NCBI GenBank assembly: GCA_004525875.1
Contig: SPBQ01000045.1
Span: 1 to 10,219 of the forward strand
Direction of reading: 5' to 3'
DNA length: 10,219 nucleotides
Source: Myxococcales bacterium
GTDB lineage: Bacteria; Desulfobacterota_B; Binatia; UBA1149; SPBQ01
In this document: in pieces, positions 1 to 10,219 of the stretch
Position numbering within the stretch: the stretch's first letter is position 1
Layout: the number at the start of each line of letters is the position of its first letter
The notes under the pieces: model-generated
Databases searched by the model: none
The model's input: the letters and a program-made list of their open reading frames with translations, nothing else
What the model was told of the DNA's origin: nothing
Translations under genes and position numbers: made by a program

Positions 1-390
1 ATCGGGCCCCGTCTTCTGGTTCTCGAACCAGATCTTGCCGATCGTCATCAGCTCCTTGAGACCCGGAGCCGCGGCCACGAAGTAGCGGTAGATCTTGCTC
101 GCGAACACGCCAGCCAGGAGCCTGCGGATCGGGAGCACGATTTCAAGATACTCCGAGAGCGCGGTGTCACCCTCCACGTACGCGATGGAGAGACCCGGTC
201 GCACCTCCAGCGGCGCACCGGGCTCGTTCGGGATGCGCTCGAACAGCCGGCACAGGCCGCCCGGCTCGCCAAGCTCCACAGCCAGAACGCGGCGTCGGGG
301 GGTAGCGGCGGCGAGCGCCATCGCCGCCGTCAGCGTGGATTTGCCGACACCGCCCTTGCCGACGATGAAGTGGAGCCGCTTTCCTGACAC
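1..390 (-). CDS. ArsA-like anion-transporting ATPase family protein, N-terminal part (runs off left edge)
   Basis: The reading frame enters from GTG at 390 and stays open for 130 codons to the window edge, so the C-terminal part is missing. A deviant Walker A of the ArsA/Get3/MinD class, GKGGVGKST, lies at residues 11-19 right after a hydrophobic beta strand, followed by a second strand (RVLAVEL, about 34-40). The segment AAPGLKELMTIGKIWFE near 107-123 resembles what I recall of ArsA-like ATPases in deltaproteobacteria. The family uses ATP for conformational work as a dimer (arsenite export, tail-anchored protein targeting, or unknown roles); no ars genes are visible, so arsenite is not supported. 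The GTG was chosen because an in-frame TGA lies 21 bases upstream of it and it directly precedes the P-loop strand. No clear Shine-Dalgarno is seen. The gene diverges from bamD across about 164 bases. The family call is firm and the role unknown. Confidence 0.85.
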   Translation of the reverse strand, partial: MSGKRLHFIVGKGGVGKSTLTAAMALAAATPRRRVLAVELGEPGGLCRLFERIPNEPGAPLEVRPGLSIAYVEGDTALSEYLEIVLPIRRLLAGVFASKIYRYFVAAAPGLKELMTIGKIWFENQKTGPD

Positions 391-517
391 AGGGAGTCGC
401 GCCGCGTGGCCGCGTCATGCCTAACACGGACGACCGCGCGAGCCGACCGGCGGCGGCGGACGGCGGAGCTCGCAGCGCGACGCAGCGACGCACGCGCGCC
501 CGAACGCACGCTGAATG

Positions 518-545
518 TGGACCCGTCGGCGCGCTGCGATAGAAT
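518..545 (+). promoter_or_regulatory. Candidate sigma-70 promoter for bamD, nearly leaderless
   Basis: TGGACC at 518-523 and TAGAAT at 540-545 are separated by 16 bases; the -10 matches the consensus at five of six positions. Transcription would start near 552, only a few bases before the ATG at 555. No Shine-Dalgarno is seen, which fits a leaderless or near-leaderless mRNA. Pattern match only. Confidence 0.35.
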
Positions 546-554
546 CCGCTGACC

Positions 555-1301
555 ATGCCTCGAAGACTCAGACCCCGCCGGCCGAGCACGCCGGCGTTCC
601 TGCTGACCCCACTCATAGTGCTCGCCCTGTCGGGCTGCGGTGCCCCGCCGCCTCTCGGTGAACAGCAGCTCTACGCCGAGGCGAACAATGAATTCGAGCA
701 CGGCAACTTCAACCTGGCGAGCCAGCGATACGATGAGCTCCTCGAGCAGTACCCCTTCTCCGAGCTCTCGGAGATCTCCCGGCTGCGTGTCGGCCAAGCC
801 TACTATCTGAACGGCGATTACGACAAGGCCGTCGCGTCGTTCACCGACTTCGAGCGCCTGCACCCGACCAGTCCCCTGCTACCGTTCGTCGAGTACACGA
901 TCGGCATGAGCCACCTCGACCAGGCTCGTTCCCGCGACCGAGACAAGTCGGCCACCGACAATGCCCTGCGCCAGTTCGACGGCGTGAGTGAACGCTATCA
1001 CGCGTCCATTTACGGCCGTCTCGCCGACTACCGCATGGGGCAGTGTGAGCAGAAGCTCGCCAGCCATGAGCTCTACGTCGGCGACTACTACGTGAAGATC
1101 GGCCAGGTCACGGCCGGACTGGCCCGCTACCGATACATACTCGATTTCTACCCGAGCAGCGATGCCGCAATCCTCGGCGCCGAGCGTCTCGGACTACCGA
1201 CGGAGGACTACGGCCCGGACGCGCCCGAGCGCAACTCCGGTGTCGAGATCGTCGAGATCCCGGCCGAGTCGGTGTTGGACGAGAACCTCGGGCTGGAGTG
1301 A
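555..1301 (+). CDS. bamD: Outer membrane protein assembly factor BamD-like lipoprotein
   Basis: The 248-residue protein has a basic N terminus, a hydrophobic segment (about 15-25) and a lipobox LSGC, so Cys28 should be lipidated and the mature protein held in the outer membrane facing the periplasm. TPR-type repeats follow: residues about 37-66 (LYAEANNEFEHGNFNLASQRY), 75-105 (GQAYYLNGDYDKAVASF) and the C-terminal repeats. The block from 157 to 200, with HELYVGDYYVK and ARYRYILDFYP, is typical of the BamD/YfiO/ComL family. BamD is the essential partner of BamA in folding beta-barrel proteins. The length matches E. coli BamD (about 245). The C-terminal tail after residue 215 is acidic and probably disordered. 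Start: the only ATG ahead of a sensible signal peptide. It stands alone between a divergent and a convergent neighbour, so it is probably monocistronic. A plain TPR lipoprotein is the alternative, less likely. Confidence 0.9.
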   Translation: MPRRLRPRRPSTPAFLLTPLIVLALSGCGAPPPLGEQQLYAEANNEFEHGNFNLASQRYDELLEQYPFSELSEISRLRVGQAYYLNGDYDKAVASFTDFERLHPTSPLLPFVEYTIGMSHLDQARSRDRDKSATDNALRQFDGVSERYHASIYGRLADYRMGQCEQKLASHELYVGDYYVKIGQVTAGLARYRYILDFYPSSDAAILGAERLGLPTEDYGPDAPERNSGVEIVEIPAESVLDENLGLE

Positions 1302-1331
1302 GCGGGCGGAGAGAGCGACGTGGCCCGCTCA
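1299..1331. terminator. Hairpin shared by two convergent genes, stop codons in opposite arms
   Basis: TGAGCGGGC at 1299-1307 and GCCCGCTCA at 1323-1331 form a perfect 9-bp inverted repeat with a 15-base loop. The bamD stop is the first three bases of the left arm; the stop of the minus-strand phosphatase is the outer end of the right arm. No T-run follows on either strand, so a bidirectional terminator or 3'-end stabiliser is inferred from position only. Confidence 0.45.
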
Positions 1332-2075
1332 GTCCGTCAGCAGACTCCGTCGCATCGCATCGACGGTCGCGCACCCCACGCCGATCGATTCGAGATAGCC
1401 CAGCGTCGATCCCCATCGACGGTCGAGCTCCGCAAGAGTGTGGCGCATACGCTCGGGCGGGCTCGAGGTGAGATACGCGATGGCTTCGTCGTCGAGGCCG
1501 CGGCTCTCGAGCTCGCCGCGGTAGGATTGCAGGATCGTGCGCAGGTGCCGCTCCGAGACGGCATAGTCGGCGACCACCTCCTCGTCGGGCACTCCGAGCG
1601 CCCTGAGGATAACGGCTGCCACGACGCCGGTACGATCTTTGCCCCCGGTGCAGTGGAAGACGCAGGCGCCGGCACCGGGCTCGGCCAGCCACTCCACGAC
1701 TCGGCAGATCGTCCCCCCTCCCTGCTGGAGCATCTCCACGTAGCGCTCCTGGAGATTCATCTGCAGCCAATCCAGCTCCGCATCGAACGGGCTCAACGAA
1801 ACCTGGACGAGTGGAACATGGACGTGGCGGCGCGCCGAGACGAACTCGCCGACACCATCGTTCTCGAGTTCGGTCCGGCTGCGAAGATCGAAGACGATCT
1901 CGATGCCGAGTGGATCGAGCACCGGCGCGTCGGTGGCACCGAGCCGGTGAAGCGCGTCGGCGCGATACGCGCGGCCACGGACGACACGACGGCCGCCGAG
2001 GGTCGGGTGTCCGCCGAGATCGCGAAAGTTGACCGCGCCCTCGAGCGCAATGGGTTCAGAAGGCCGGGCGACCAT
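1329..2075 (-). CDS. Tyrosine-protein phosphatase, Y_phosphatase3 / MptpB-like family
   Basis: The protein has 248 residues. The active-site P-loop is HCTGGKDRTG at 141-150, a CX5R signature with nucleophile Cys142 and Arg148; the Lys-Asp-Arg inside the loop is characteristic of the MptpB/LipA-like group, which acts on phosphotyrosine and in several members on phosphoinositides. Other family marks are NFRDLGG (16-22), a conserved strand and turn VFDLRSRTE (61-69), and a helical C-terminal region after 160 ending YLESIGVG. No signal peptide is seen, so the protein should be cytoplasmic; secretion as in Mycobacterium is not suggested by the sequence. Start: ATG at 2075, just before the conserved N-terminal block. 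It is transcribed away from the sulfur cluster and I see no functional link to it. Family call secure, substrate unknown. Confidence 0.9.
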   Translation of the reverse strand: MVARPSEPIALEGAVNFRDLGGHPTLGGRRVVRGRAYRADALHRLGATDAPVLDPLGIEIVFDLRSRTELENDGVGEFVSARRHVHVPLVQVSLSPFDAELDWLQMNLQERYVEMLQQGGGTICRVVEWLAEPGAGACVFHCTGGKDRTGVVAAVILRALGVPDEEVVADYAVSERHLRTILQSYRGELESRGLDDEAIAYLTSSPPERMRHTLAELDRRWGSTLGYLESIGVGCATVDAMRRSLLTD

Positions 2076-2079
2076 GACC

Positions 2080-2148
2080 GCCGCTTTTAACGGCCCCGGC
2101 CGGCCGGGGAAAGCGGCCCGCTCCCGCTCTGCGGGCCTCGGCCGCTTT
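2080..2148. repeat. Alternating inverted repeats in the divergent intergenic region
   Basis: GCCGCTTT at 2080-2087, AAAGCGGCC at 2110-2118 and GGCCGCTTT at 2140-2148 form two mutually exclusive hairpins that share the middle element. The second has a perfect 9-bp stem with an inner CCCGC/GCGGG option and ends in TTT. A perfect 16-bp palindrome (CCCCGGCCGGCCGGGG, 2094-2109) sits in the loop of the first. The first element directly precedes the phosphatase start codon. Possible roles are an insulating terminator, an operator, or phosphatase 5' UTR structure; none is proven. Confidence 0.5.
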
Positions 2149-2171
2149 GACTCCCGGCGGATCAGGAGTTA

Positions 2172-2333
2172 GCCTTTTCGAGCCTTATCAAGAGTGGTGG
2201 AGGGATTGGGCCCTGCGAAGCCACAGCAACCGACCTGCCAGCTCCGGCACGCGGGAATTCCCGGCCTCTCCGGCCCGGGTTCCCGGCAAGCCGGCCGCGG
2301 GTGCCAGGTGCTAAATCCTACGCCCCGGGAAAG
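2172..2333 (+). promoter_or_regulatory. SAM-I (S-box) riboswitch aptamer
   Basis: The S-box core is clear: CTTATCAAGAG (2184-2194), a P2 helix GTGG (2194-2197) with CCAC (2221-2224), a GGGCCC segment (2208-2213), the kink-turn-like GCGAAGCC, GCAACC (2226-2231), and the P4 block GGTGCTAAATCC (2307-2318). P1 can form from TTTTCGAGC (about 2175-2183) with GCCCCGGGAAA (about 2322-2332), with one mismatch and a bulge. The P3 arm (about 2232-2306) is unusually long, with nested GC-rich hairpins, among them GGCAC/GTGCC. This class binds S-adenosylmethionine and shuts off methionine and cysteine genes, which fits the genes that follow. Known biology: class and ligand. Inference: that it controls the whole cluster. 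Confidence 0.93.
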
Positions 2334-2334
2334 A

Positions 2335-2346
2335 AAGGGGGTGATC
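2335..2346 (+). promoter_or_regulatory. Exceptionally strong Shine-Dalgarno for the ATG at 2348
   Basis: AAGGGGGTGATC matches the 12 bases complementary to the 16S rRNA 3' end (AAGGAGGTGATC) at 11 positions and lies right after P1 of the riboswitch. It points to the ATG at 2348, not to any start in the frame of the E1 gene. CCCC at 2323-2326 could mask its G-run. Confidence 0.7.
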
Positions 2347-2347
2347 G

Positions 2348-2416
2348 ATGAGGCAGGGAACGCAACACAGCCTCTTCCTTGCCCGTCCGCGAGAGGAAGA
2401 GTTTTTTGTACCCTGA
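2348..2416 (+). CDS. 22-codon leader ORF, or true 5' end of the E1 gene in a shifted frame
   Basis: ATG at 2348 with a near-ideal Shine-Dalgarno opens a 22-residue peptide (MRQGTQHSLFLARPREEEFF, then VP and stop). It runs through the attenuator hairpin and its T6 tract and stops at 2414-2416, inside the E1 reading frame. Loss of a single T from the six-T run at 2402-2407 would join it without a stop to the E1 protein (GAG TTT TTG TAC CCT GAC GAC), giving about 276 residues. It is thus either a leader peptide whose translation crosses the terminator, or the real N terminus of the E1 with slippage or a homopolymer error. I cannot choose from this sequence alone. Confidence 0.5.
   Translation: MRQGTQHSLFLARPREEEFFVP
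2352..2383 (+). promoter_or_regulatory. Candidate antiterminator helix
   Basis: GGCAGGGAA (2352-2360) can pair with TTCCTTGCC (2375-2383) over nine base pairs, one a G-U, with a 14-base loop. The right strand is the 5' arm and loop start of the terminator at 2372-2407, so the two folds exclude each other. How SAM binding would disrupt this helix is not obvious, because P1 does not overlap the left strand. Confidence 0.4.
2372..2407 (+). terminator. Riboswitch-controlled intrinsic terminator (attenuator)
   Basis: CTCTTCCTT (2372-2380) pairs with GAGGAAGAG (2393-2401) over nine base pairs (the innermost a T-G wobble), with a 12-base loop and an immediate TTTTTT (2402-2407). Its place 39 bases after the S-box aptamer is the usual arrangement for SAM-I transcriptional control: high SAM, termination; low SAM, read-through. 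Confidence 0.82.
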
Positions 2417-3179
2417 CGACCCCAGCACCGGTGACCGCCGCCCCCCACGCATCCTCGTCGTGGGTGTCGGCGCGCTCGGCTGCCCTGCGGCGGAGATTCT
2501 CGCGGCCGACGGGGGCGTCTCGTGCACGCTCATCGACGACGACCGCGTCGAGACGTCCAACCTCCAGCGACAGATCCTGTTCGACAACCAAGCTGTCGGC
2601 CGACCGAAGGCGCGCGCGGCCGCGGCTGCGCTCGAGCATCGCTTCCCGGACACGCATATCGTCTACCTCGATACCCGTTTCGCAGCGGACAACGCGTGCC
2701 AACTGGTCGACGAGCACGATTTCGTGATCGACGCCTGCGACGATCCAATCACGAAGCTGCTCATCAACCAGACCTGCGTGGCTACCGGCACGCCGTTTGT
2801 CTACGGCGGCGTCATGCGCACGGGCGGGCAGACGATGTCGGTAGCTCCGGGTGCGTCGGCCTGCCTGGCCTGCATATTCCCCGTGCTCACCGACCCGGCC
2901 GCCTCCGGCTCCGGCGATGACGATGCCGAGTCGTGCAGCCGCATGGGCATTCTCGCACCCGTGGCCGGCGTCGTCGGTTCGATGCAGGCGCTTGCGACGC
3001 TCGAGACGCTGGCCGGCCGTGGGCGGCCGGGCCGGATGCACATCTACGAGCTGAGGGGGGCGCGCTGGCGCTCGGTCGACTTCGATCCGCGGCCGGGCTG
3101 TCCGGTCTGCGATCGCCCGGCTACTCGCCGCCACACCGAAGACGATAAGCCCAGGAGGCAAGAGACATGCCCTACCTGA
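2379..3179 (+). CDS. E1-like sulfur-carrier adenylyltransferase (ThiF/MoeB/HesA family)
   Basis: Expected reaction: ATP-dependent adenylation of the C-terminal glycine of the small carrier encoded at 4511. Numbered from the TTG at 2379 (266 aa): nucleotide-binding GVGALG at 29-34, acidic strand end LIDDD (51-55), ATP-contacting NLQRQ (61-65), Lys77, DACDD (118-122), zinc pairs CLAC (162-165) and CPVC (241-244), and Cys186 in SCSRMG, where MoeB and ThiF carry a conserved cysteine. The MoeB/ThiF domain is otherwise complete, but the usual N-terminal RYxRQ segment is missing; a protein with that segment is encoded at 6008. The start is unsure: the TTG lies inside the terminator stem and has no Shine-Dalgarno, whereas the strong one serves the ATG at 2348 in another frame; TTG 2406 is also possible. 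The 3' end overlaps the next gene by 13 bases. First structural gene after the riboswitch. Confidence 0.88.
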   Translation: MPVRERKSFLYPDDPSTGDRRPPRILVVGVGALGCPAAEILAADGGVSCTLIDDDRVETSNLQRQILFDNQAVGRPKARAAAAALEHRFPDTHIVYLDTRFAADNACQLVDEHDFVIDACDDPITKLLINQTCVATGTPFVYGGVMRTGGQTMSVAPGASACLACIFPVLTDPAASGSGDDDAESCSRMGILAPVAGVVGSMQALATLETLAGRGRPGRMHIYELRGARWRSVDFDPRPGCPVCDRPATRRHTEDDKPRRQETCPT

Positions 3180-4432
3180 ACGGAATGAAGTGCAGAGAGT
3201 GCGGGGAGGGCTACGAGCTCGCCCCCATCAACGTCTGCGAGTTCTGCTTCGGCCCGCTCGAGGTCCAGTACGACTACGACGCGATCGCAGCCGACATCAG
3301 CCGCGAGAAGATCGAATCGCGGCCACCCAACCTCTGGCGCTACCGCGAGCTACTGCCCTGCGAGGGCGAGCCGCACATCGGGCTCTACTCGGGCTATACT
3401 CCGCTGGTTCGCGCCGACCGGCTTGCCAAGGAGCTCGGCGTCAAGGACCTCTACGTCAAGGACGACTCCTGCAATCACCCCTCGTTCTCCTACAAGGACC
3501 GGGTCGTGTCGGTAGCAATCACCAAGGCAATCGAGTTCGGCTTCGACACCGTCTCCTGCGCGTCGACGGGTAACCTCGCCAACTCGGTTTCCGCGCACGC
3601 GGCGCGGGCCGGGCTACGATGCTTCATCTTCATCCCGGACAACCTCGAGCGGGGCAAGGTTCTCGGCTCGGCGATCTATGCGCCCACCACGGTCGGCATT
3701 CGCGGTACCTACGACGACGTGAACCGGCTGTGTACGGAAATCGCCGACAAGTACGGCTGGGCCTTCGTCAATATCAATCTCCGAGCGTTCTACACCGAGG
3801 GAGCGAAGACCTACGGCTTCGAGGTCGCGGAGCAGCTCGGCTGGAAGCTGCCGCGGCACATCGTCGTCCCGACCGCCGGAGGCACGATCCTCCCAAAGGT
3901 CGCGCGCGGCTTCGAGGAGATGGTCCTTGTCGGCCTCGTCGAGGACACTCCCTGGAAGATCTACTCGGCGCAGGCCAGTGGCTGCGCGCCGGTGGTCAAC
4001 GCGATCCATCGCGAGAGCGAGCTGATCGAACCGGTCAAGCCCGACACGATTGCCAAGTCGATCGCGATCGGCAACCCGGCCGACGGTTACTACGTGCTCG
4101 GCGCGGTGCGCAAATCGGGCGGCTGGGGCGACTCGGCTACGGACCGTGAGATCGTCGAGGGCATCAAGCTACTCGCCCGTACCGAGGGAATCTTCACGGA
4201 GCCGGCCGGCGGAACCACCGTCGCCGTCACCAAGAAGCTGATCGAGAAGGGCAAGATCCCTCGTGACGAGTCGATCGTGATCTGCGTGACCGGCAACGGC
4301 TATAAAACGCTCGAGGCGGTAGCGGACAGCGTCGAGGAGCCGCACCTCATCGGCGCGCGGCTCGGCGAGTTCGACGAACTCTACGCGGGCTTCTCCGACG
4401 AGGTCCGGCAGGCCAAGCGCGGAGTCGCGTGA
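3167..4432 (+). CDS. Threonine-synthase-like PLP enzyme with N-terminal zinc ribbon
   Basis: A 421-residue fold-type II PLP enzyme. Cys9/Cys12 (CREC) and Cys24/Cys27 (CEFC) form a rubredoxin-like zinc ribbon found in one group of threonine synthases. The cofactor lysine is Lys110 in SFSYKDR; the phosphate or substrate loop STGN is at 133-136, PTAGGT at 235-240 binds PLP phosphate, and TGNGYK lies at 375-380. Classical threonine synthase turns O-phosphohomoserine into threonine. Here the gene follows a SAM riboswitch and E1 and precedes a sulfur carrier, so I infer it may instead replace the phosphate with carrier-borne sulfur to make homocysteine, or supply a linked step. Start: ATG 3167 with AGGAGG at 3153-3158, overlapping the end of the E1 gene, so translation is probably coupled. 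Family certain; reaction open between threonine and homocysteine. Confidence 0.88.
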   Translation: MPYLNGMKCRECGEGYELAPINVCEFCFGPLEVQYDYDAIAADISREKIESRPPNLWRYRELLPCEGEPHIGLYSGYTPLVRADRLAKELGVKDLYVKDDSCNHPSFSYKDRVVSVAITKAIEFGFDTVSCASTGNLANSVSAHAARAGLRCFIFIPDNLERGKVLGSAIYAPTTVGIRGTYDDVNRLCTEIADKYGWAFVNINLRAFYTEGAKTYGFEVAEQLGWKLPRHIVVPTAGGTILPKVARGFEEMVLVGLVEDTPWKIYSAQASGCAPVVNAIHRESELIEPVKPDTIAKSIAIGNPADGYYVLGAVRKSGGWGDSATDREIVEGIKLLARTEGIFTEPAGGTTVAVTKKLIEKGKIPRDESIVICVTGNGYKTLEAVADSVEEPHLIGARLGEFDELYAGFSDEVRQAKRGVA

Positions 4433-4455
4433 CGCCCCGCGGGGATCTCGCCGAG

Positions 4456-4486
4456 TTGCGCGATTCCGGGCCCTGACGCATATAAT
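4456..4486 (+). promoter_or_regulatory. Candidate internal promoter ahead of the carrier gene
   Basis: A perfect TATAAT (4481-4486) stands out in this GC-rich DNA; TTGCGC at 4456-4461 is a weak -35 at a long 19-base spacing. The start would be near 4493, leaving a leader of about 18 bases holding the Shine-Dalgarno GAGGAGGG (4498-4505). It would let the carrier, cysM-like, NIL and pseudo-E1 genes be made independently of the riboswitch. Confidence 0.45.
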
Positions 4487-4510
4487 GACACATTTTCGAG
4501 GAGGGTCCCG

Positions 4511-4789
4511 ATGGCAGTCCAGGTGAGAATTCCGACCCCGCTGCGCAAGTTCACGGGCGGGCAGGAGGCCGTGCCGGCCGACGGCGGTTCGATCGGCGAG
4601 ATCATCGACGATCTCGAGCAGAAGCATCCCGGCCTGAAGGATCGCATCTGCGAGGCCGACGGCAGGGTACGGCGCTTCGTCAATCTCTACGTGAACGGTG
4701 ACGACATCCGCTTTCTCGATAACCTGGGCTCCCCGGTGAAGGACGGCGACGAGGTCTCGATCGTGCTCGCCATCGCGGGCGGCGCCTGA
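4511..4789 (+). CDS. Ubiquitin-like sulfur-carrier protein, CysO/HcyS/MoaD type, with Gly-Gly-Ala tail
   Basis: A 92-residue beta-grasp protein. It starts MAVQVRIPTPLRKFTGGQ and has FVNLYVNGDDIRFLDNL at 56-72, then DGDEVSIVLAIAGGA at 78-92; from memory this follows M. tuberculosis CysO closely, whose chain ends at Gly-Gly. The carrier's terminal glycine is adenylated by an E1 and converted to a thiocarboxylate that donates sulfur to a PLP enzyme. Here one Ala follows Gly90-Gly91, so the end must be trimmed before it can be activated, as described for HcyS-Ala and the metalloprotease HcyD in Wolinella succinogenes. No JAB/MPN protease is recognisable in the window. Start: ATG 4511 with a strong Shine-Dalgarno. 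It sits 78 bases after the threonine-synthase-like gene and 29 before the cysteine synthase gene. ThiS or MoaD function in thiamin or molybdopterin synthesis is less likely in this setting. Confidence 0.9.
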   Translation: MAVQVRIPTPLRKFTGGQEAVPADGGSIGEIIDDLEQKHPGLKDRICEADGRVRRFVNLYVNGDDIRFLDNLGSPVKDGDEVSIVLAIAGGA

Positions 4790-4818
4790 CGGACGCACGC
4801 CGCCCGCGGCGCCCGTAC

Positions 4819-5757
4819 ATGTCGGAGACCAAAACAGCCCAGCGCATTCCGCAGATCCTCGAGCTCATCGGCAGGACGCCGATGCTGGAGATCCGGCGGC
4901 TGCGCGGCGACACGCCCGAGCACGTGCGCCTGTTCGCGAAGCTGGAGGGATACAACCCCGGCGGCTCCGTGAAGGACCGCCCGGCGTGGAACATGATCCG
5001 CCGCGGCCTGGACACGGGTGAGCTGCGTCCCGGAAAGACCATCATCGACTCGACCTCGGGCAACACCGGGATCGCGCTCGCCATGATCGGCGCCGCTCTC
5101 GGCTATCCGGTCGAGCTGGTGATGCCCGAGAACGTTTCAGCTGAGCGCAAGAGCGTGATCCGCGCCTACGGTGCGAAGCCCATCTACTCGAGCGGGCTCG
5201 AGGGGTCCGACGGCGCCCTGCTGCTGTGCAGGGAGCTCCACGAGGCCAACCCGGAGCGCTACTTCAAGCCGAATCAGTACTACAACGAGGCCAATCCGGA
5301 GGCTCACTACCTCACCACCGGCCCAGAGATCTGGAACCAGACCGACGGTCGCATCACGCACCTGGTCGCGACGCTCGGCACCGGCGGTACCGCGATGGGA
5401 ACGGGGCGCTACCTCAAGGACCAGAATCGTGAAGTGCAGGTGATCGGCGTGGAGCCGGACGACGCGTTCCACGGGATCGAAGGGCTCAAACACATGGAGA
5501 GCTCGATCGTCCCTGGGATCTACCACGAGGAAGAGCTCGACGTGAAGCTCGGCGTGTCCACCGAGGCTGCCTACGACATAGTCCACAGGTTGGCCGCGGA
5601 GGAAGGCCTCATGGTCGGACAGTCCAGTGGCGCGGCTCTCGTCGCCGGCCTGCGAGTGGCCCAGCGGCTCGAGCAGGGCTGCATCGTGATGATCTTCTGT
5701 GACTTCGGTGACCGCTACCTGACCACCAATCTATGGTCCGGTTTCGGCGACGCCTGA
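4819..5757 (+). CDS. cysM: Cysteine synthase, CysM-like (possible carrier-dependent enzyme)
   Basis: A 312-residue fold-type II PLP enzyme of the cysteine synthase family. Lys52 in GGSVKDRPA is the Schiff-base lysine; STSGNTG (78-84) is the substrate loop, GTGGT (187-191) holds PLP phosphate, and GQSSGAA (267-273) contacts the pyridine ring. The path from EGYNPGGSVKDRPAWNMI onward and EPDDAFHGIEGLKHME resemble CysM of M. tuberculosis, which uses O-phosphoserine and CysO thiocarboxylate. By a remembered alignment, Lys224 falls where that enzyme has the phosphate-binding Arg220. The chain ends about 11 residues earlier than I recall for mycobacterial CysM. Start: ATG 4819, without a visible Shine-Dalgarno, so coupling to the carrier gene 29 bases upstream is likely. 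Cystathionine beta-synthase-like activity or an O-acetylserine substrate remain possible. Confidence 0.88.
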   Translation: MSETKTAQRIPQILELIGRTPMLEIRRLRGDTPEHVRLFAKLEGYNPGGSVKDRPAWNMIRRGLDTGELRPGKTIIDSTSGNTGIALAMIGAALGYPVELVMPENVSAERKSVIRAYGAKPIYSSGLEGSDGALLLCRELHEANPERYFKPNQYYNEANPEAHYLTTGPEIWNQTDGRITHLVATLGTGGTAMGTGRYLKDQNREVQVIGVEPDDAFHGIEGLKHMESSIVPGIYHEEELDVKLGVSTEAAYDIVHRLAAEEGLMVGQSSGAALVAGLRVAQRLEQGCIVMIFCDFGDRYLTTNLWSGFGDA

Positions 5758-5771
5758 GACGGAGCTCCGCC

Positions 5772-6011
5772 ATGTCGACGCAGCGTTTCTACCTCACGTA
5801 CAGCGAGGCAAAGATCAAGGAGCCGATCATCTACCTGGTCGGCAAGAAATTCGACGTCGTCACGAACATTCGCGGAGCGTCGGTGTCGGACCACATCGGC
5901 ATCGTGGCTCTGGAGCTCGAAGGCGAGGAGAGCGTCATCGAGAAAGCCGCGCGCTGGATCGCCGGCCAAGGCGTCAAGGTCGAGCCGATCCAGAAGAACG
6001 TGATCGAGTGA
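5772..6011 (+). CDS. Stand-alone NIL domain protein
   Basis: A 79-residue protein that is essentially one NIL domain: an N-terminal strand (RFYLTYS), a helix from KEPIIYLVGKKF, strands around DVVTNIRGASVSDHIGIVALELEG, and a second helix (ESVIEKAARWIAGQ) before the strand VKVEPI. NIL domains form the methionine-sensing C terminus of the MetN transporter ATPase and occur in small proteins and ferredoxins linked to homocysteine synthesis in methanogens. I infer a sensor or assembly partner for the PLP and carrier proteins. Start: ATG 5772 with GGAG at 5761-5764, seven bases upstream; an upstream in-frame extension overlaps cysM and lacks domain character. The stop overlaps the start of the next gene. 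Family call strong, exact role unknown. Confidence 0.85.
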   Translation: MSTQRFYLTYSEAKIKEPIIYLVGKKFDVVTNIRGASVSDHIGIVALELEGEESVIEKAARWIAGQGVKVEPIQKNVIE

Positions 6012-6565
6012 AGCGCGCGCGAGAATCCCCCACGCGCCGCGCGCCCGGGCCCGCGCAGGGAACCGGCGCCCCGCTCTCCAACACCGACATCGACCGCTTC
6101 TCGCGGCAGATCATCATCCCGGGGCTGGGCGCGACTGGTCAGGCCTGCCTGATGGCGAGCTCGGTGTTCGTCGTCGGCGATGGTCCAGCCTCTGCACTCG
6201 CCCGCAGCTACGCCCGCGCCGCCGGGCTGCAAATCGCGAAAGATCCGGCATCCGCGAACTGTAGCGTCGTCGGCATCGAAGACCGACTCACCGCCGAGCA
6301 GCAAGGCTGTTTGGAGAACGCACGTTCACCGATCGTATGGTACCGCGTCGACGGCGCAGAGCTGCGTGCAGGCGTGGTCGAGCGCGTCGAGGACCTCGCC
6401 ACGTCAGCCAAGCCATCGACGGACACAGCAGCGGCACAGCCGACGGACGAAGCAGCCCGTCGCGCGATGCTCGCGGTAGCGGCCTGCGACGCGATCGCCT
6501 CGACGATAGGACTCTTGCTCGGCTGGGCCCACGCGGACGAGGATCATCGGGTGCGCCTTGCTTAG
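6008..6565 (+). CDS. Degenerate E1-like (pseudo-ThiF/MoeB) protein
   Basis: A 185-residue protein starting at GTG 6008, which overlaps the previous stop (GTGA), a sign of coupled translation. After about 25 low-complexity residues comes DIDRFSRQIIIPGLGATGQACLMASSVFVVGDG (27-59), matching the N-terminal Arg-finger helix and first Rossmann strand of MoeB/ThiF. After that the catalytic parts are absent: GDGPAS stands for GxGxxG, there is no NLxRQ block, no DxxD, no Cys-x-x-Cys pair and no conserved cysteine, and the second half is Ala-rich. It can hardly adenylate by itself. The E1 encoded at 2379 lacks just the segment present here, so I infer that this is a pseudo-E1 partner giving Arg30/Arg33 in trans, much as the inactive halves of eukaryotic heterodimeric E1s do. 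A decaying duplicate is the alternative. Confidence 0.75.
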   Translation: MKRARESPTRRAPGPAQGTGAPLSNTDIDRFSRQIIIPGLGATGQACLMASSVFVVGDGPASALARSYARAAGLQIAKDPASANCSVVGIEDRLTAEQQGCLENARSPIVWYRVDGAELRAGVVERVEDLATSAKPSTDTAAAQPTDEAARRAMLAVAACDAIASTIGLLLGWAHADEDHRVRLA

Positions 6566-6592
6566 CCCGGTCCATCTCAAGGTGAACCGGGC
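6565..6592 (+). terminator. Weak hairpin after the last cluster gene
   Basis: GCCCGGT at 6565-6571 and ACCGGGC at 6586-6592 form a perfect 7-bp stem with a 14-base loop, starting on the last base of the pseudo-E1 stop codon. There is no T-run, so it is at best a Rho-type or mRNA-end hairpin. Confidence 0.3.
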
Positions 6593-6857
6593 CGCGGGCG
6601 GGGCACGCTCGTCGGACGCGAACGCTACTACGAAGCCCTCGAGCACACCGCGAGAATCTGCCCCAGCGGGACCGTCTGGAACGACCTCGTCGTCAGCCTG
6701 TCGATCATCCCGTCCCCGAACCCGAGGACGTCGCCCTGTGTACGCCCATCTCTATGCGGCGGTTCGCGAGGCACGCATCAATGTCCAGTACGTGCGCGAC
6801 CTCGGCTATGCGATCACGCCCATCGAAGCTCCGCTATTTCGCGGGAGAGGATGCTAA
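6593..6857 (+). pseudogene. Frameshift-broken coding remnant, family not recognised
   Basis: No intact gene is seen between 6566 and 7058, but protein-like stretches occur in successive frames on the plus strand. Frame of 6608: LVGRERYYEALEHTARICPS and on to VWNDLVVSLS, up to about 6704. Frame of 6703: VDHPVPEPEDVAL, to about 6735. Frame of 6738: VYAHLYAAVREARINVQYVR, then DLGYAITPIEAPLF, ending at a stop at 6855-6857. Joined, they read as one plausible protein of about 80-90 residues, needing two small indels, one near 6700 and one near 6737 (removing two bases there gives ALYAHLYAAVREA). A further piece, LLSPVHLKVNRAAG, in the frame of 6558 may be its start. Either a decayed gene or sequence errors. 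No HxH metalloprotease motif is present, so I do not call it the missing carrier protease. Confidence 0.4.
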
Positions 6858-7058
6858 ATTGGATGTCGCCGTGAGCAGCTTCTACCGATCCCAGCTCGGT
6901 GGGCGTGCGGTGCGGGGGCTTTCCGAGCTGAGGCGACGTTTGCGTGTCAGGCGGGTCGGCGAGTCGTTCGATTCCTCGCAACTCTAAGACTGCGCGGCAA
7001 TCGCGCTCCTGGCCTGACAAGCATCCGAAGCCCCTCCAGTAGGACTCGCGTAGCTCGC
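6858..7058 (+). other. Intergenic stretch before the transporter, no clear gene
   Basis: The frame through 6871-6987 encodes GTG-start SSFYRSQLGGRAVRGLSELR and on to the stop at 6985-6987, about 38 residues and Arg-rich; it may be the tail of the broken gene upstream or chance. Two short GC hairpins (GCGCG/CGCGC at 6992-7006; GCGAG/CTCGC near 6959-6979) are too weak to call. No promoter with a good match was found. Confidence 0.3.
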
Positions 7059-8480
7059 ATGGATGTCGTCGTCGACACCCGGCCTCTGTGGGTCGCCATT
7101 CTGTCCCGGTCCGCCCGGGTGCTGCAGCTCGCCGTCGGCATCGTCGTCTTCTGGGCGATCTGGACGATGGAGACCCCGGACGGTCTCACGGTCGAGGGAC
7201 AGAAAGCGCTGTCCGTATTCGCGCTGTGCGTCAGCTACTGGGTGCTGAACGTCCTGCCGCTGATGATCACCAGCCTGCTGGCGATCGCGTTGATCGCACT
7301 GACTGGCGTGATGAGCTCCGAACAGGCCTACTCCCTGTTCGGGAACTCGGCGGTATTATTCATTCTCGGCGCGTTCATCCTCGCCGCCTGCTTGATGAAA
7401 TCGGGGCTTTCCACGCGTATGGCCCTCGTTTTCCTGCAACGCTTCGGCCGCTCGCCAAAGTCGCTACTAGTCTCGATCTTCTTGTTGAATGCCTTCATGT
7501 CGTTCTGGATGTCCCAGCACGCCGTGGCCGCGATGAACTTCCCGATCGTGGCGGAGATCGTGGCAGTGCTCGGCCTGCGCCCGTTCCGGCATTCCTACGG
7601 CAAGGCGCTGTTCGTGGCGCTCGCTTGGGGCTCCACGATCGGGGGCGTGGCCACCCTTCTGGGTGGCGGTCGGGCACCGCTGGCACTGGCCGTTCTGGAG
7701 CAGATCACCGGTGAGCAGCCGTTCGATTTTCTGAGCTGGACGCGTCACGCGCTCCCCACGGTCGTCCTCATGCTGGCCGCCGGATACTTCGTCATCACAC
7801 GCTGGTTCCCCGTCGACATCGAGAGCGTCTCGCAGGCCGAGGAAGTCCTCGCCGAGCGTGTCAGGAAGCTCGGACGCATGCGCTACGAGGAGAAGGAAAT
7901 CGCAACGGTGATGATCGGAACCGTCGCCGTCTGGGTCGGCTTCGGCCACGAGCTCGGGCTCGCCAACGTAGCAATCATGGCGGTTGTCGTGCTGTTCGGC
8001 CTGCGTCTGGTCGCCTGGCGCGACGTCGAGGAGTACGTCAACTGGGGGATCATCCTGATGTACGGCGGCGCCATCTGCCTCGGCAAGGCGCTCGACGCGT
8101 CCGGAGCGGCGTGCTGGCTGGCCGAACTCTCCATCGGGCTGTGGGCCGACTCGCCTCAAGCGATCATCGTGTCGCTCTCGTTGACCACATGGTTACTCAC
8201 CGAAGCGATGAGCGATTCGGGTTTCGTTGCACTCATGATGCCAGTGGGGCTCGGTCTGGCGCGCGACGCGGGCGTGGTGCTGTCGACGATCGCGCCCACG
8301 ATCGCGATCCCCGCAGGACTGGCGATCGCGTTCCCGATCGGGACGCCCGCCAACGCGATCGCATACAGCTCGGGCTATCTCCGGCTACGCGACCTGATCG
8401 TGCCGGGCATTCTGCTCGGCCTGATGGCTTGGCTGGCCTTCAACCTGACTGCCGCCCTGTACTGGCCGCTCCTCGACTGA
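7059..8480 (+). CDS. DASS/SLC13-family anion transporter
   Basis: A 473-residue polytopic inner-membrane protein with about 11-12 hydrophobic segments and the internal repeat of the divalent anion:sodium symporter family. The first re-entrant region, FMSFWMSQHAVAAMNFPIV (146-164), and the second, LLTEAMSDSGFVALMMPV (379-396), lie where family members carry the Ser-Asn-Thr motifs that bind sodium and substrate; here these read SQH and SDS. WGSTIGGVATLLGG (190-203) and FPIGTPANAIAYSSG (425-439) are the matching conserved loops, the latter close to consensus. A cytoplasmic charged stretch sits at 254-281. The family carries dicarboxylates, citrate or sulfate; sulfate or another sulfur oxyanion would suit the neighbours but is only inferred. 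Start: ATG 7059, AGGA 14 bases upstream, weak. It is separated from the sulfur cluster by about 490 bases, so co-transcription is uncertain. Confidence 0.88.
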   Translation: MDVVVDTRPLWVAILSRSARVLQLAVGIVVFWAIWTMETPDGLTVEGQKALSVFALCVSYWVLNVLPLMITSLLAIALIALTGVMSSEQAYSLFGNSAVLFILGAFILAACLMKSGLSTRMALVFLQRFGRSPKSLLVSIFLLNAFMSFWMSQHAVAAMNFPIVAEIVAVLGLRPFRHSYGKALFVALAWGSTIGGVATLLGGGRAPLALAVLEQITGEQPFDFLSWTRHALPTVVLMLAAGYFVITRWFPVDIESVSQAEEVLAERVRKLGRMRYEEKEIATVMIGTVAVWVGFGHELGLANVAIMAVVVLFGLRLVAWRDVEEYVNWGIILMYGGAICLGKALDASGAACWLAELSIGLWADSPQAIIVSLSLTTWLLTEAMSDSGFVALMMPVGLGLARDAGVVLSTIAPTIAIPAGLAIAFPIGTPANAIAYSSGYLRLRDLIVPGILLGLMAWLAFNLTAALYWPLLD

Positions 8481-8498
8481 CGTCGCAGCCAACAAGGC

Positions 8499-8514
8499 GC
8501 ACACCTGGATGTGC
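8499..8514. terminator. Small hairpin between convergent genes
   Basis: GCACA (8499-8503) and TGTGC (8510-8514) with a 6-base loop lie between the transporter stop and the end of the minus-strand operon. On the minus strand it is followed by a mildly T-rich stretch (GCCTTGTT). Weak candidate for a shared terminator. Confidence 0.25.
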
Positions 8515-8552
8515 ACGCACAGACAGATAGATGAAGCCGAGAGGTCGAGTGA

Positions 8553-8864
8553 TCAGCGCTGTTGCTGCGCCGGGACGGCGAAGCTGATCTCGTAGCCGAA
8601 CACGGCCGTCAGGAGATAGTAGACCGCCATCAGCGCGGAAACCGTGGTTATCATCGCGCCCACCGCGATGCCCGAGAGCATCACCACACCGACGACGCCA
8701 GCCGCGGCGACGATGGGCGTCAGAACGGCCGAGCGGTTGAAAGGGTCGATCGGCGACATGAGCGAGGCGAGCCCGCCCTCGCGCGTCTCCTCGTCGAACG
8801 CATCGAACAGCCCCTGCACTTGCTCACCGACCGAGGACCACATGTCGTCGAAGTTCCAGCCCAT
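8553..8864 (-). CDS. Small membrane protein of unknown function, last gene of the ECF operon
   Basis: A 103-residue protein. The N-terminal 45 residues are hydrophilic and acidic (MGWNFDDMWSSVGEQ; FDAFDEETREGG). Two adjoining hydrophobic segments follow (about 47-69 and 71-90), the second with aromatic residues (VYYLLTAVFGYE), then a short tail ending AQQQR. This gives a two-helix hairpin with both ends on the same side. I do not recognise the family. The ATG at 8864 directly follows the stop of the upstream gene (TAA then ATG), and the Shine-Dalgarno GGGAGGGG lies within the end of that gene, so the two are co-transcribed and probably coupled. Conservation with the ECF sigma/anti-sigma pair would be the clue to its role. 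Confidence 0.75.
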   Translation of the reverse strand: MGWNFDDMWSSVGEQVQGLFDAFDEETREGGLASLMSPIDPFNRSAVLTPIVAAAGVVGVVMLSGIAVGAMITTVSALMAVYYLLTAVFGYEISFAVPAQQQR

Positions 8865-9380
8865 TTACTCCCCTCCCTGACTCAGCGCCTCGAAGTTTTC
8901 GATCGACGGTTGCTCCGCGGCCCGGATGCTCACGATGATCGTGCCCGCATCGGTCCGACTGCTCTTCAGAAGCAGGTTGGCGTTCCGGCTCAGCTTAACG
9001 TCCGCGTTCAGCACCGGCCGGTTATCCTGGATGAGCAACAGGCGCATTGAGAAGTGTCCCGGCGTGCTCTCGGTCGTGTTCATCTGCAGATAGCCTCCCC
9101 CCGGAATGTCCATCGAGCACTGATCGCCGGTGGCGAACTTGCAAGAGTGGACCGCGAGGAGCTGGTAGCTGCGAAACGGGAACCCACGAAGCTGCGGGCG
9201 CAGGTGCTTCAGTCTCGGATCGATGCCGCGCCCGTCGCGTGAGGCGAGGACTGCCGAGACCTGTACGATCGACCTATCGAGCGCGACAGCGACAGCGTCA
9301 TCGGCCAGTGCGTGGTTGGCCCAACCGATCCCTCCTCCACACCACAGCACCAACCCCGAAATCGCCGCGAGTCGGAGCAT
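8865..9380 (-). CDS. Exported protein of unknown function, ECF-operon partner
   Basis: A 171-residue protein with a Sec-type signal peptide: hydrophobic core about 4-20 and a likely cut after ANHALA (residue 26). Cys14 lies in the hydrophobic core, preceded by Trp, so it is not a lipobox. The mature part begins DDAVAVALDRSIVQVSAVLA, contains DPRLKHLRPQL, two cysteines about 10 apart (in HSCKF and DQCSM) that could form a disulfide, then a beta-rich half (GGGYLQMNTTE; MRLLLIQDNRPVLNADVKL). I recognise no named family. ATG 9380 is three bases after the anti-sigma stop. Periplasmic location and its place right behind the anti-sigma gene suggest that it is a target of, or takes part in, the signal sensed by the anti-sigma factor. 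Confidence 0.75.
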   Translation of the reverse strand: MLRLAAISGLVLWCGGGIGWANHALADDAVAVALDRSIVQVSAVLASRDGRGIDPRLKHLRPQLRGFPFRSYQLLAVHSCKFATGDQCSMDIPGGGYLQMNTTESTPGHFSMRLLLIQDNRPVLNADVKLSRNANLLLKSSRTDAGTIIVSIRAAEQPSIENFEALSQGGE

Positions 9381-9383
9381 CGA

Positions 9384-10040
9384 TCAGCGCGTACTGTCGG
9401 TGGCAGCAATATTGCCCACGCCGAACTCGTCACCCGGGTCGTTGACCCAAATTACTTGCGTCCGCGTCCGCGGCCTCGACCAGATGGAGACAGAGCTGCC
9501 GGCCGCGATGTCGACGTTGTCGATGCTTACGTCCCTAGTGCGAAGGTCGTCGTGGCGGCTGATGATCGTCGGAGCCCCGACCTTCTTTCTGGCGATCGCG
9601 TGGCCGAACTTCGTGCCGATGTCGGTGCTGCCGGCCAGAACGAACAGCGCCAGAACCACGGCCGCAGCCGCAAAGACGCCGGCGCGCAACGGAGCCGGCC
9701 CCAGGATCGCGAGGACGAGATCGCGAGCACGGTCGAGTTGTCGTGCCCATCCTACCTTGCCTACCTTGGCGCCGGAGAGCTCGGGACGCGCCAAAGCCAA
9801 CGTGCCGCGCTCGGCCTCGAGCCGAGCCTCGATCGACTTCCACAGGCCTGAAACGTCAACGGCCGCAGCCTTGTCGGCTACGGCCGTTCGCAGCAACGCC
9901 GAAGCGTGCTGGTAGCTCGTGACGAGCTTGTTACACCCTTCACAGCCGCGCACGTGTTCCGCCGCGGTCTTCATATCCGGCCCCGACAGCACCACGTCGA
10001 GGTACCGATCGATATTCGCCTCGAAGGCACGACAATCCAC
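9384..10040 (-). CDS. Membrane anti-sigma factor with zinc-finger (ZAS/zf-HC2) domain
   Basis: A 218-residue protein. The N-terminal cytoplasmic part has Cys3, then HVRGCEGC with His29, Cys33 and Cys36: the Hx3Cx2C zinc signature of ZAS anti-sigma factors that bind ECF sigma factors. A helical linker (about 60-112) leads to one membrane segment (about 118-136, LRAGVFAAAAVVLALFVLAG). The periplasmic part of about 80 residues includes SSVSIWSRPRTRTQVIWVND at 182-201 and no recognised sensor domain. It should hold the sigma factor encoded just upstream at the membrane until a signal arrives. GTG start at 10040 (AGGGAG 11 bases before it), two bases after the sigma stop, indicating coupled synthesis of the pair. 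Which envelope signal it senses cannot be read from the sequence. Confidence 0.88.
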   Translation of the reverse strand: MDCRAFEANIDRYLDVVLSGPDMKTAAEHVRGCEGCNKLVTSYQHASALLRTAVADKAAAVDVSGLWKSIEARLEAERGTLALARPELSGAKVGKVGWARQLDRARDLVLAILGPAPLRAGVFAAAAVVLALFVLAGSTDIGTKFGHAIARKKVGAPTIISRHDDLRTRDVSIDNVDIAAGSSVSIWSRPRTRTQVIWVNDPGDEFGVGNIAATDSTR

Positions 10041-10042
10041 TG

Positions 10043-10219
10043 TCAGATAAGCTCCCTGAGCTTCGCTTGCAGCTTCTTCCTGGCGTAATGGAGCCTGCTC
10101 ATGACGGTTCCGAGGGAGCAGTCGAGGGTTTGGCTGATCTCCTCATAGGAGAGGCCTTCGATCTCGCGCAAAATTATGACCGCCCGATGATCTGGCGTCA
10201 AATCGTCGATTGCGCGAAA
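10043..10219 (-). CDS. ECF-family RNA polymerase sigma factor, C-terminal part (runs off right edge)
   Basis: The last 58 codons of a sigma-70 family gene. LTPDHRAVIILREIEGLSYE at about 7-26 and EEISQTLDCSLGTVMSRLHY at about 26-45 are region 4, whose helix-turn-helix binds the -35 element; the chain ends KKLQAKLRELI. The motif and its pairing with a ZAS anti-sigma gene mark it as an extracytoplasmic-function sigma factor. The N-terminal region 2 lies outside the window. It leads a four-gene minus-strand operon and presumably activates its own promoter beyond the edge. Confidence 0.92.
   Translation of the reverse strand, partial: FRAIDDLTPDHRAVIILREIEGLSYEEISQTLDCSLGTVMSRLHYARKKLQAKLRELI

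Follow-up and report, generated by a model that had tools for sequence, protein, structure and literature searches.

Results

The stretch of DNA analyzed here (the window, 10,219 nucleotides) is contig SPBQ01000045.1, positions 1 to 10,219, of the Myxococcales bacterium assembly GCA_004525875.1. In its list of open reading frames, the plus strand from 2182 to 6565 forms a single six-gene cluster headed by an S-adenosylmethionine (SAM) riboswitch. The first gene encodes an E1-like adenylyltransferase that lacks the N-terminal RYxRQ arm, and the last one encodes a pseudo-E1 that has this arm and has lost its ATP and zinc sites; a preliminary description of the locus had rightly placed the two at opposite ends of the cluster. 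At the gene level, one active-type subunit is thus combined with one inactive, E1-derived subunit carrying the finger arm, as in heterodimeric E1s. With good confidence, we propose that the cluster encodes such an enzyme, in which the pseudo-E1 would be the partner providing its Arg33 as a finger in trans, the pathway would involve a carrier protein, and the two subunits would originate from a duplication.

The E1 at the head of the cluster

The protein encoded from 2406 scored 190.3 bits against the Pfam ThiF model (cut-off 28.1), which places it among the E1-like adenylyltransferase domains of the ThiF/MoeB family. A profile built from its E1 relatives aligned with ThiF and MoeB across the entire domain past the arm. 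In these alignments the window E1 carries the equivalents of G38, G40, G43, D62, R73, K86 and D130 (MoeB numbering), and both cysteine pairs of the zinc site are kept. No RYxRQ-like segment is found upstream of its GxGxxG motif, whether the start is taken at 2379 or 2406. The alignments therefore agree with the preliminary description, which gave this E1 its ATP and zinc motifs and no RYxRQ N terminus. The start at 2379 (TTG) given there is doubtful, since database protein P0004 begins in the same frame at 2406, directly 3' of a likely ribosome-binding purine run; TTG 2406 is the more likely start codon.

These features recur in the class to which the closest relatives belong (surveyed below). 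An arm in the same chain as the ATP site is missing in the window E1 and in 98 class genomes, and all seven ATP-site residues are present in 100 of the 101 class E1s scored, the remaining one having six. Could the arm have been overlooked? ATG 2347 was rejected as an arm-bearing start, as it opens a different frame encoding a 22-residue peptide without the motif. An extended N terminus (MRQGT...) for relatives P0005-P0007 was set aside, as this stretch resembles an in-frame reading of the riboswitch and hairpin, and other relatives begin with LYP or MYP. Finally, a three-frame check upstream in 78 loci for a frame error hiding the arm gave a single match, in another frame (L232).

Neither a catalytic-cysteine domain nor a ubiquitin-fold domain for transfer to E2 was found in the window E1, which is 257 amino acids long and whose family shows no inserted domains when aligned with ThiF. 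A short RRxxxC-type tail with S or T as the last residue closes many of the nearest E1s (window about 3150-3176, alignment of relatives).

The pseudo-E1 closing the cluster

The 6008 protein has an arm of the RYxRQ type, DRFSRQIIIP. Its residues 22-74 match the N terminus only of the NCBIfam MoeB/ThiF models, and a Pfam scan assigned it to no family, the ThiF domain included. R33 aligns with MoeB Arg14 and ThiF Arg11, which are described in passages of PMC13139853 as arginine fingers donated by the neighboring subunit. Beyond the arm, the first glycine of GxGxxG is the sole survivor, consistent with the earlier statement that the catalytic motifs are lost after DRFSRQIIIP. The protein is nevertheless predicted to fold like ThiF/MoeB, i.e. 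as an E1 adenylation domain. A chance match of the arm can be dismissed, because 89 other genomes show this pairing too.

A single-sequence database search with the 6008 protein retrieved three relatives, itself included, the closest (74% identical) coming from a Candidatus Binatia metagenome-assembled genome, which makes this class the probable one of the window as well. The impression of a private gene was corrected by a profile search, with at least 315 matches at E <= 1e-10 among the 7998 best candidates; all 120 database matches listed keep at most four of the seven ATP-site residues. Across the 103 pseudo-E1 homologues of the class, zero to four of these residues are kept and the site is complete in none. 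The finger arginine was aligned in 102 of the 103, each with RQ, by a profile that scores chiefly the arm and so favors detection of arm-bearing proteins. The last one (L171) was not placed in the profile alignment, and its arginine was read by eye (IERWSRQ) in the same gene fetched as L095.

The ratio of nonsynonymous to synonymous substitution rates (dN/dS), obtained by a simple counting method, had a median of 0.32 for the pseudo-E1s (range 0.17-0.59; 44 non-independent pairs from 31 genomes, drawn from 102 of the 103 pseudo-E1s at 60-97% identity and moderate dS) and 0.24 for the E1s (102 pairs). The pseudo-E1s are under purifying selection.

Distribution in related genomes

An initial scan covered E1 relatives from one genome per species, at least 79 loci. 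An armed pseudo-E1 stands at the cluster end in 12 of the 12 loci with an arm-less E1. The E1s of 66 other loci have an arm segment (56 [YF]xRQ, 7 HHRQ, RYARH in L035, and RHSGH in L019 and L047), and no pseudo-E1 was seen in any of these 66, whose titles include Planctomycetes, Bacteroidetes, Gammaproteobacteria and others. L077 is cut off and was left out of the classification.

The survey was extended to 148 genomes from the class of the closest relatives. Since a search with the pseudo-E1 profile would miss arm-less E1s lacking a partner, the E1 profile was used as well, and each locus was scored for the arm and for seven ATP-site residues. In 89 genomes, one region contains both an arm-less E1 and an armed pseudo-E1, and 33 have a single E1 with its own arm. 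One genome (G068, locus L155) has two armed E1s with all seven residues, one per position. In six genomes the pseudo-E1 lies in another part of the assembly, mainly through contig breaks. No pseudo-E1 was found in three genomes with an arm-less E1, the contig stopping before its place in two of them. The pseudo-E1 is present and the E1 lost or partial in eight; an armed E1 is broken at a contig edge in one (G361), and seven have no readable cluster E1.

Altogether, 95 of the 98 arm-less cluster E1s are accompanied by a pseudo-E1, as against 0 of the 33 single armed E1s. The co-occurrence that the preliminary description had called for is therefore found. Clusters without the second gene, which it had named as a difficulty, do exist; all 33 have an E1 with its own arm, leaving one arm-less exception (G302, considered below). 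In the 33 genomes, whole-genome searches at E <= 1e-3 matched only that E1 and other E1s. The place after the cluster is reached in 28 of them (in L276 by about 0.2 kb only) and the contig ends in five; no pseudo-E1 is present in the 27 where at least 0.7 kb is readable. Five of the other matches were read (L293-L297) and look like ordinary E1s, one of them split over two frames and some truncated at a contig end. The remaining ones were judged to be ordinary E1s from their frame length (392-492 codons).

The two proteins also vary together. In the 82 genomes with all four proteins (7 of the 89 were dropped), pseudo-E1 distances correlate with those of the E1 at r 0.79, of CysM at 0.63 and of the carrier at 0.61; once the two remaining proteins are controlled for, the E1 keeps 0.55, against 0.10 and 0.08 for CysM and the carrier. 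These pairwise values are non-independent and are given without a significance test.

In four loci (L183, L202, L228 and L232) the E1 and pseudo-E1 genes are adjacent or overlapping, and neither a carrier gene nor a gene for a pyridoxal phosphate (PLP) enzyme is present in the fetched stretch.

Evolution of the gene pair

Locus L155 has two complete armed E1s at opposite ends of the same cluster (2413-3501 and 5997-6983, both on the minus strand). It is likely a living intermediate, in the state that preceded the split. This suggests that a complete E1 was duplicated, after which one copy lost its arm and the other its ATP site. In a tree built from all alignment columns, the 3' copy of L155 joins the pseudo-E1s (0.90) and the 5' copy joins the arm-less E1s (0.55-0.75). 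Removing the arm columns leaves the 5' copy grouped with arm-less E1s (0.76). In a fuller tree (85 of 146 rows after thinning at 75%, without the second L155 E1 and L239), the best topology requires three changes of arm state, of which well-supported branches force one.

An origin of the heterodimeric E1 inside this bacterial class would fit both L155 and the co-variation of E1 and pseudo-E1. The argument that the split is separate from the eukaryotic one is its confinement to one class whose relatives have ordinary one-gene E1s. We are fairly confident in an independent bacterial heterodimeric E1 serving one sulfur carrier, with three living stages: a single armed E1, two armed E1s, and a split pair in which the dead half would be worn down to arm and interface.

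Interpretation and alternatives

Based on these data, the following mechanism can be proposed. The 2406 protein would bind ATP and adenylate the ThiS/MoaD-like carrier at its C-terminal glycine. The 6008 protein, as a degenerate E1 copy, would occupy the place of the second subunit in a MoeB-type dimer, and its N-terminal arm would bring Arg33 to the ATP phosphates in the partner E1. The adenylated carrier would then take up sulfide to form a thiocarboxylate, whose sulfur would be passed to homocysteine by the threonine-synthase-like enzyme and to cysteine by CysM, under SAM feedback. The pair itself would derive from duplication of a complete armed E1 followed by complementary decay of the copies within one bacterial class.

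Several observations weigh against this proposal. According to passages of PMC13139853, MoeB and ThiF can do without the finger, the R59A substitution in Tcd1 has no significant effect, and E. coli TcdA has no finger; passages of PMC6031683 indicate that APPBP1 merely speeds NEDD8 activation. A finger that these two enzymes do not require, and an APPBP1 that only accelerates the reaction, make an E1 fully active alone a live possibility. In our own data, a pseudo-E1 that had lost its arm could escape a profile scoring mostly the arm. G302 (locus L244) has an arm-less E1 on a contig intact past the NIL gene and no pseudo-E1 was found, the sole match of a genome search being a 418-codon E1. The pseudo-E1 of G311 has moved out of a cluster that is itself intact. 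L019 and L047 keep the outline of the arm and have lost the finger arginine (RHSGH), with no pseudo-E1 seen at either locus. Finally, the 3' copy of L155 leaves the pseudo-E1s once the arm columns are removed, and the outgroup does not form one side of the tree, so that the changes of arm state may be gains or losses, with one or several origins. The bacterial heterodimeric E1 put forward in the preliminary description is thus supported by co-occurrence, L155 and co-variation; for its mechanistic half, we infer a finger in trans with the reserve that such a finger is dispensable in MoeB and ThiF and that the E1 may act alone.

Taken together, the MoeB, ThiF, Tcd1 and APPBP1 evidence means that what the split E1 needs from its partner may be stability more than catalysis. 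A pseudo-E1 binding the E1 as a scaffold or solubility partner, its arm serving the dimer interface and the finger adding little, is a possibility of some weight, although we do not prefer it. Tcd1 is indeed required for stability and solubility of Tcd2 with a dispensable finger (passages of PMC13139853), and APPBP1 is chiefly a scaffold (passages of PMC6031683). However, the finger arginine is found in 103 of 103 pseudo-E1s while many arm positions vary, in a set whose detection leans on the arm. This alternative is a variant of the proposed mechanism, with the heterodimer common to both, so that our confidences in the two overlap; a stability role alters the meaning of the arginine, not the heterodimer.

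The other alternatives separate the two proteins. It is unlikely that the arm-less E1 acts alone as a homodimer, with the pseudo-E1 otherwise employed, as a regulator or carrier-binding decoy. E1-like enzymes without a finger exist, such as E. coli TcdA in passages of PMC13139853, and the exceptional G302, L019 and L047 point the same way; but there would be no reason to expect an unrelated function to follow the arm, and the pseudo-E1 accompanies arm-less E1s in 95 of 98 cases and single armed E1s in 0 of 33. That the pseudo-E1 partners a different E1 of the same genomes seems very improbable. In 10 of 12 genomes, a further frame of 266-644 codons (399-422 in eight of them) does match the arm profile at E <= 1e-10, but it does so through its own arm region and hence lacks nothing. 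Moreover, it is the cluster E1 with which the pseudo-E1 co-varies, and genomes with an armed cluster E1 have no pseudo-E1, though most of them contain such other E1s too. As for a decaying pseudogene, the 6008 frame is truncated and fast-evolving and has lost catalytic residues, yet the dN/dS values (median 0.32, highest 0.59 in the 44 pairs) and an open frame with arm in 103 genomes already contradict this reading, to which we give practically no weight.

Relation to known enzymes

The eukaryotic SAE1-SAE2 and NAE1(APPBP1)-UBA3 enzymes likewise combine one catalytic and one dead adenylation half, and the arginine equivalent to UBA1 Arg57 sits in the dead half of heterodimeric E1s. UBA1 Arg57 is likened to MoeB in passages of PMC12355090. 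SAE and NAE have cysteine and ubiquitin-fold domains and form thioesters for transfer to E2s (see also PMC12355090), unlike the window E1, which is a ThiF-sized domain alone. Yeast Tcd1-Tcd2, the tRNA ct6A dehydratase, also consists of two E1-related paralogues: in passages of PMC13139853, Tcd1 is inactive, is needed for the product and gives an arginine finger to the Tcd2 ATP site in a structural model. This pair differs from the window pair in being eukaryotic, in its tRNA substrate and extra C-terminal domain, and in having no carrier protein; as we read these passages, Tcd1 also retains more of the ATP site than the bacterial pseudo-E1. In MoeB and ThiF homodimers, arm and ATP site sit together in every subunit; the window cluster places them on separate genes.

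Wolinella HcyS/HcyF/HcyD and Mycobacterium CysO/CysM/Mec+ use a carrier thiocarboxylate and a PLP enzyme to form homocysteine or cysteine, and the route predicted for the window cluster is of this kind. To our knowledge, those systems have a single-gene E1 and no threonine-synthase-like enzyme.

No precedent for a bacterial heterodimeric E1 was found in searches of the open-licence PMC literature. PMC1779556 and PMC12250964 treat bacterial E1-like enzymes, and the passages available from them contain no such pair ("homodimer" 5 times and "heterodimer" 0 times in those of PMC12250964, "heterodimer" 0 times in those of PMC1779556). The division of eukaryotic E1s into a live and a dead half is old and hard to study. 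A like change seems to have occurred in bacteria, with relatives at each stage and small enzymes without E2 domains, making it testable whether a finger in trans, stability or ratchet-like loss was the driver. Many database proteins called "hypothetical" or "adenylyltransferase" may also be E1 pseudo-subunits, as the 120 listed matches suggest.

Riboswitch, carrier and other features

Table 1. Features of the six-gene cluster, with their positions in the window.
Feature	Position	Strand	Evidence or remark
SAM-I riboswitch aptamer (S box), cluster head	2182..2354	+	Rfam RF00162, 67.4 bits (gathering 44.4)
Hairpin then U run; 3' arm with ribosome-binding-like GAGAGGAAG	2372..2407	+	weak, possible switch arm
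Arm-less E1, ThiF/MoeB family, predicted catalytically complete, 257 amino acids	2406..3179	+	2379 start in same frame
Threonine-synthase-like PLP enzyme	3167..4432	+	Pfam and NCBIfam profile matches
ThiS/MoaD-like sulfur carrier, C terminus ...AGGA	4511..4789	+	Pfam ThiS, 59.5 bits
CysM-type cysteine synthase	4819..5757	+	TIGR01138, 384 bits, slightly below cut-off 394
NIL-domain protein	5772..6011	+	Pfam NIL, 45.5 bits
Pseudo-E1, 185 residues: N-terminal arm present, ATP and zinc sites gone	6008..6565	+	
Codons R30 to R33 (RFSR) of the pseudo-E1	6095..6106	+	R33 equivalent to MoeB Arg14 / ThiF Arg11

Of the 13 related loci scanned, 9 have a SAM-I riboswitch ahead of the E1 (4 of 4 of the one-gene type and 5 of 9 of the split type). 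The hairpin that follows it in the window is weak (-19.5 kcal/mol, z just -1.63), and a pattern scan called no terminator there; its arm with the ribosome-binding-like stretch is a possible switch arm of the riboswitch. The end of its U run seems to supply the TTG start codon of the E1 (window 2372-2408).

The window cluster contains a ThiS/MoaD-like carrier, an E1 and a PLP enzyme of the sulfhydrylase type, and judging from this gene content it may make homocysteine or cysteine via a thiocarboxylated carrier. Eight related genomes carry a threonine-synthase-like gene within the cluster and have a second thrC-family gene over the cut-off elsewhere; four genomes without the cluster copy have one thrC-family gene. 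This pattern and the SAM riboswitch suggest that the cluster copy makes homocysteine, not threonine; the enzyme may thus be a carrier-fed homocysteine synthase, and the cluster suggests a route to homocysteine that uses a carrier and is controlled by SAM. In many carriers the GG is followed by a single residue (A, R, L, V or others; window 4780-4789 and relatives), which would have to be trimmed before adenylation. No JAMM protease was detected among the 10 window proteins scanned. Ten of 12 related genomes encode a Prok-JAB protein that scores above the cut-off, as such trimming would need.

A DASS-family anion transporter, possibly linked to sulfur or to the substrate of the cluster, is encoded 3' of it (window 7059-8480), as in several related loci.

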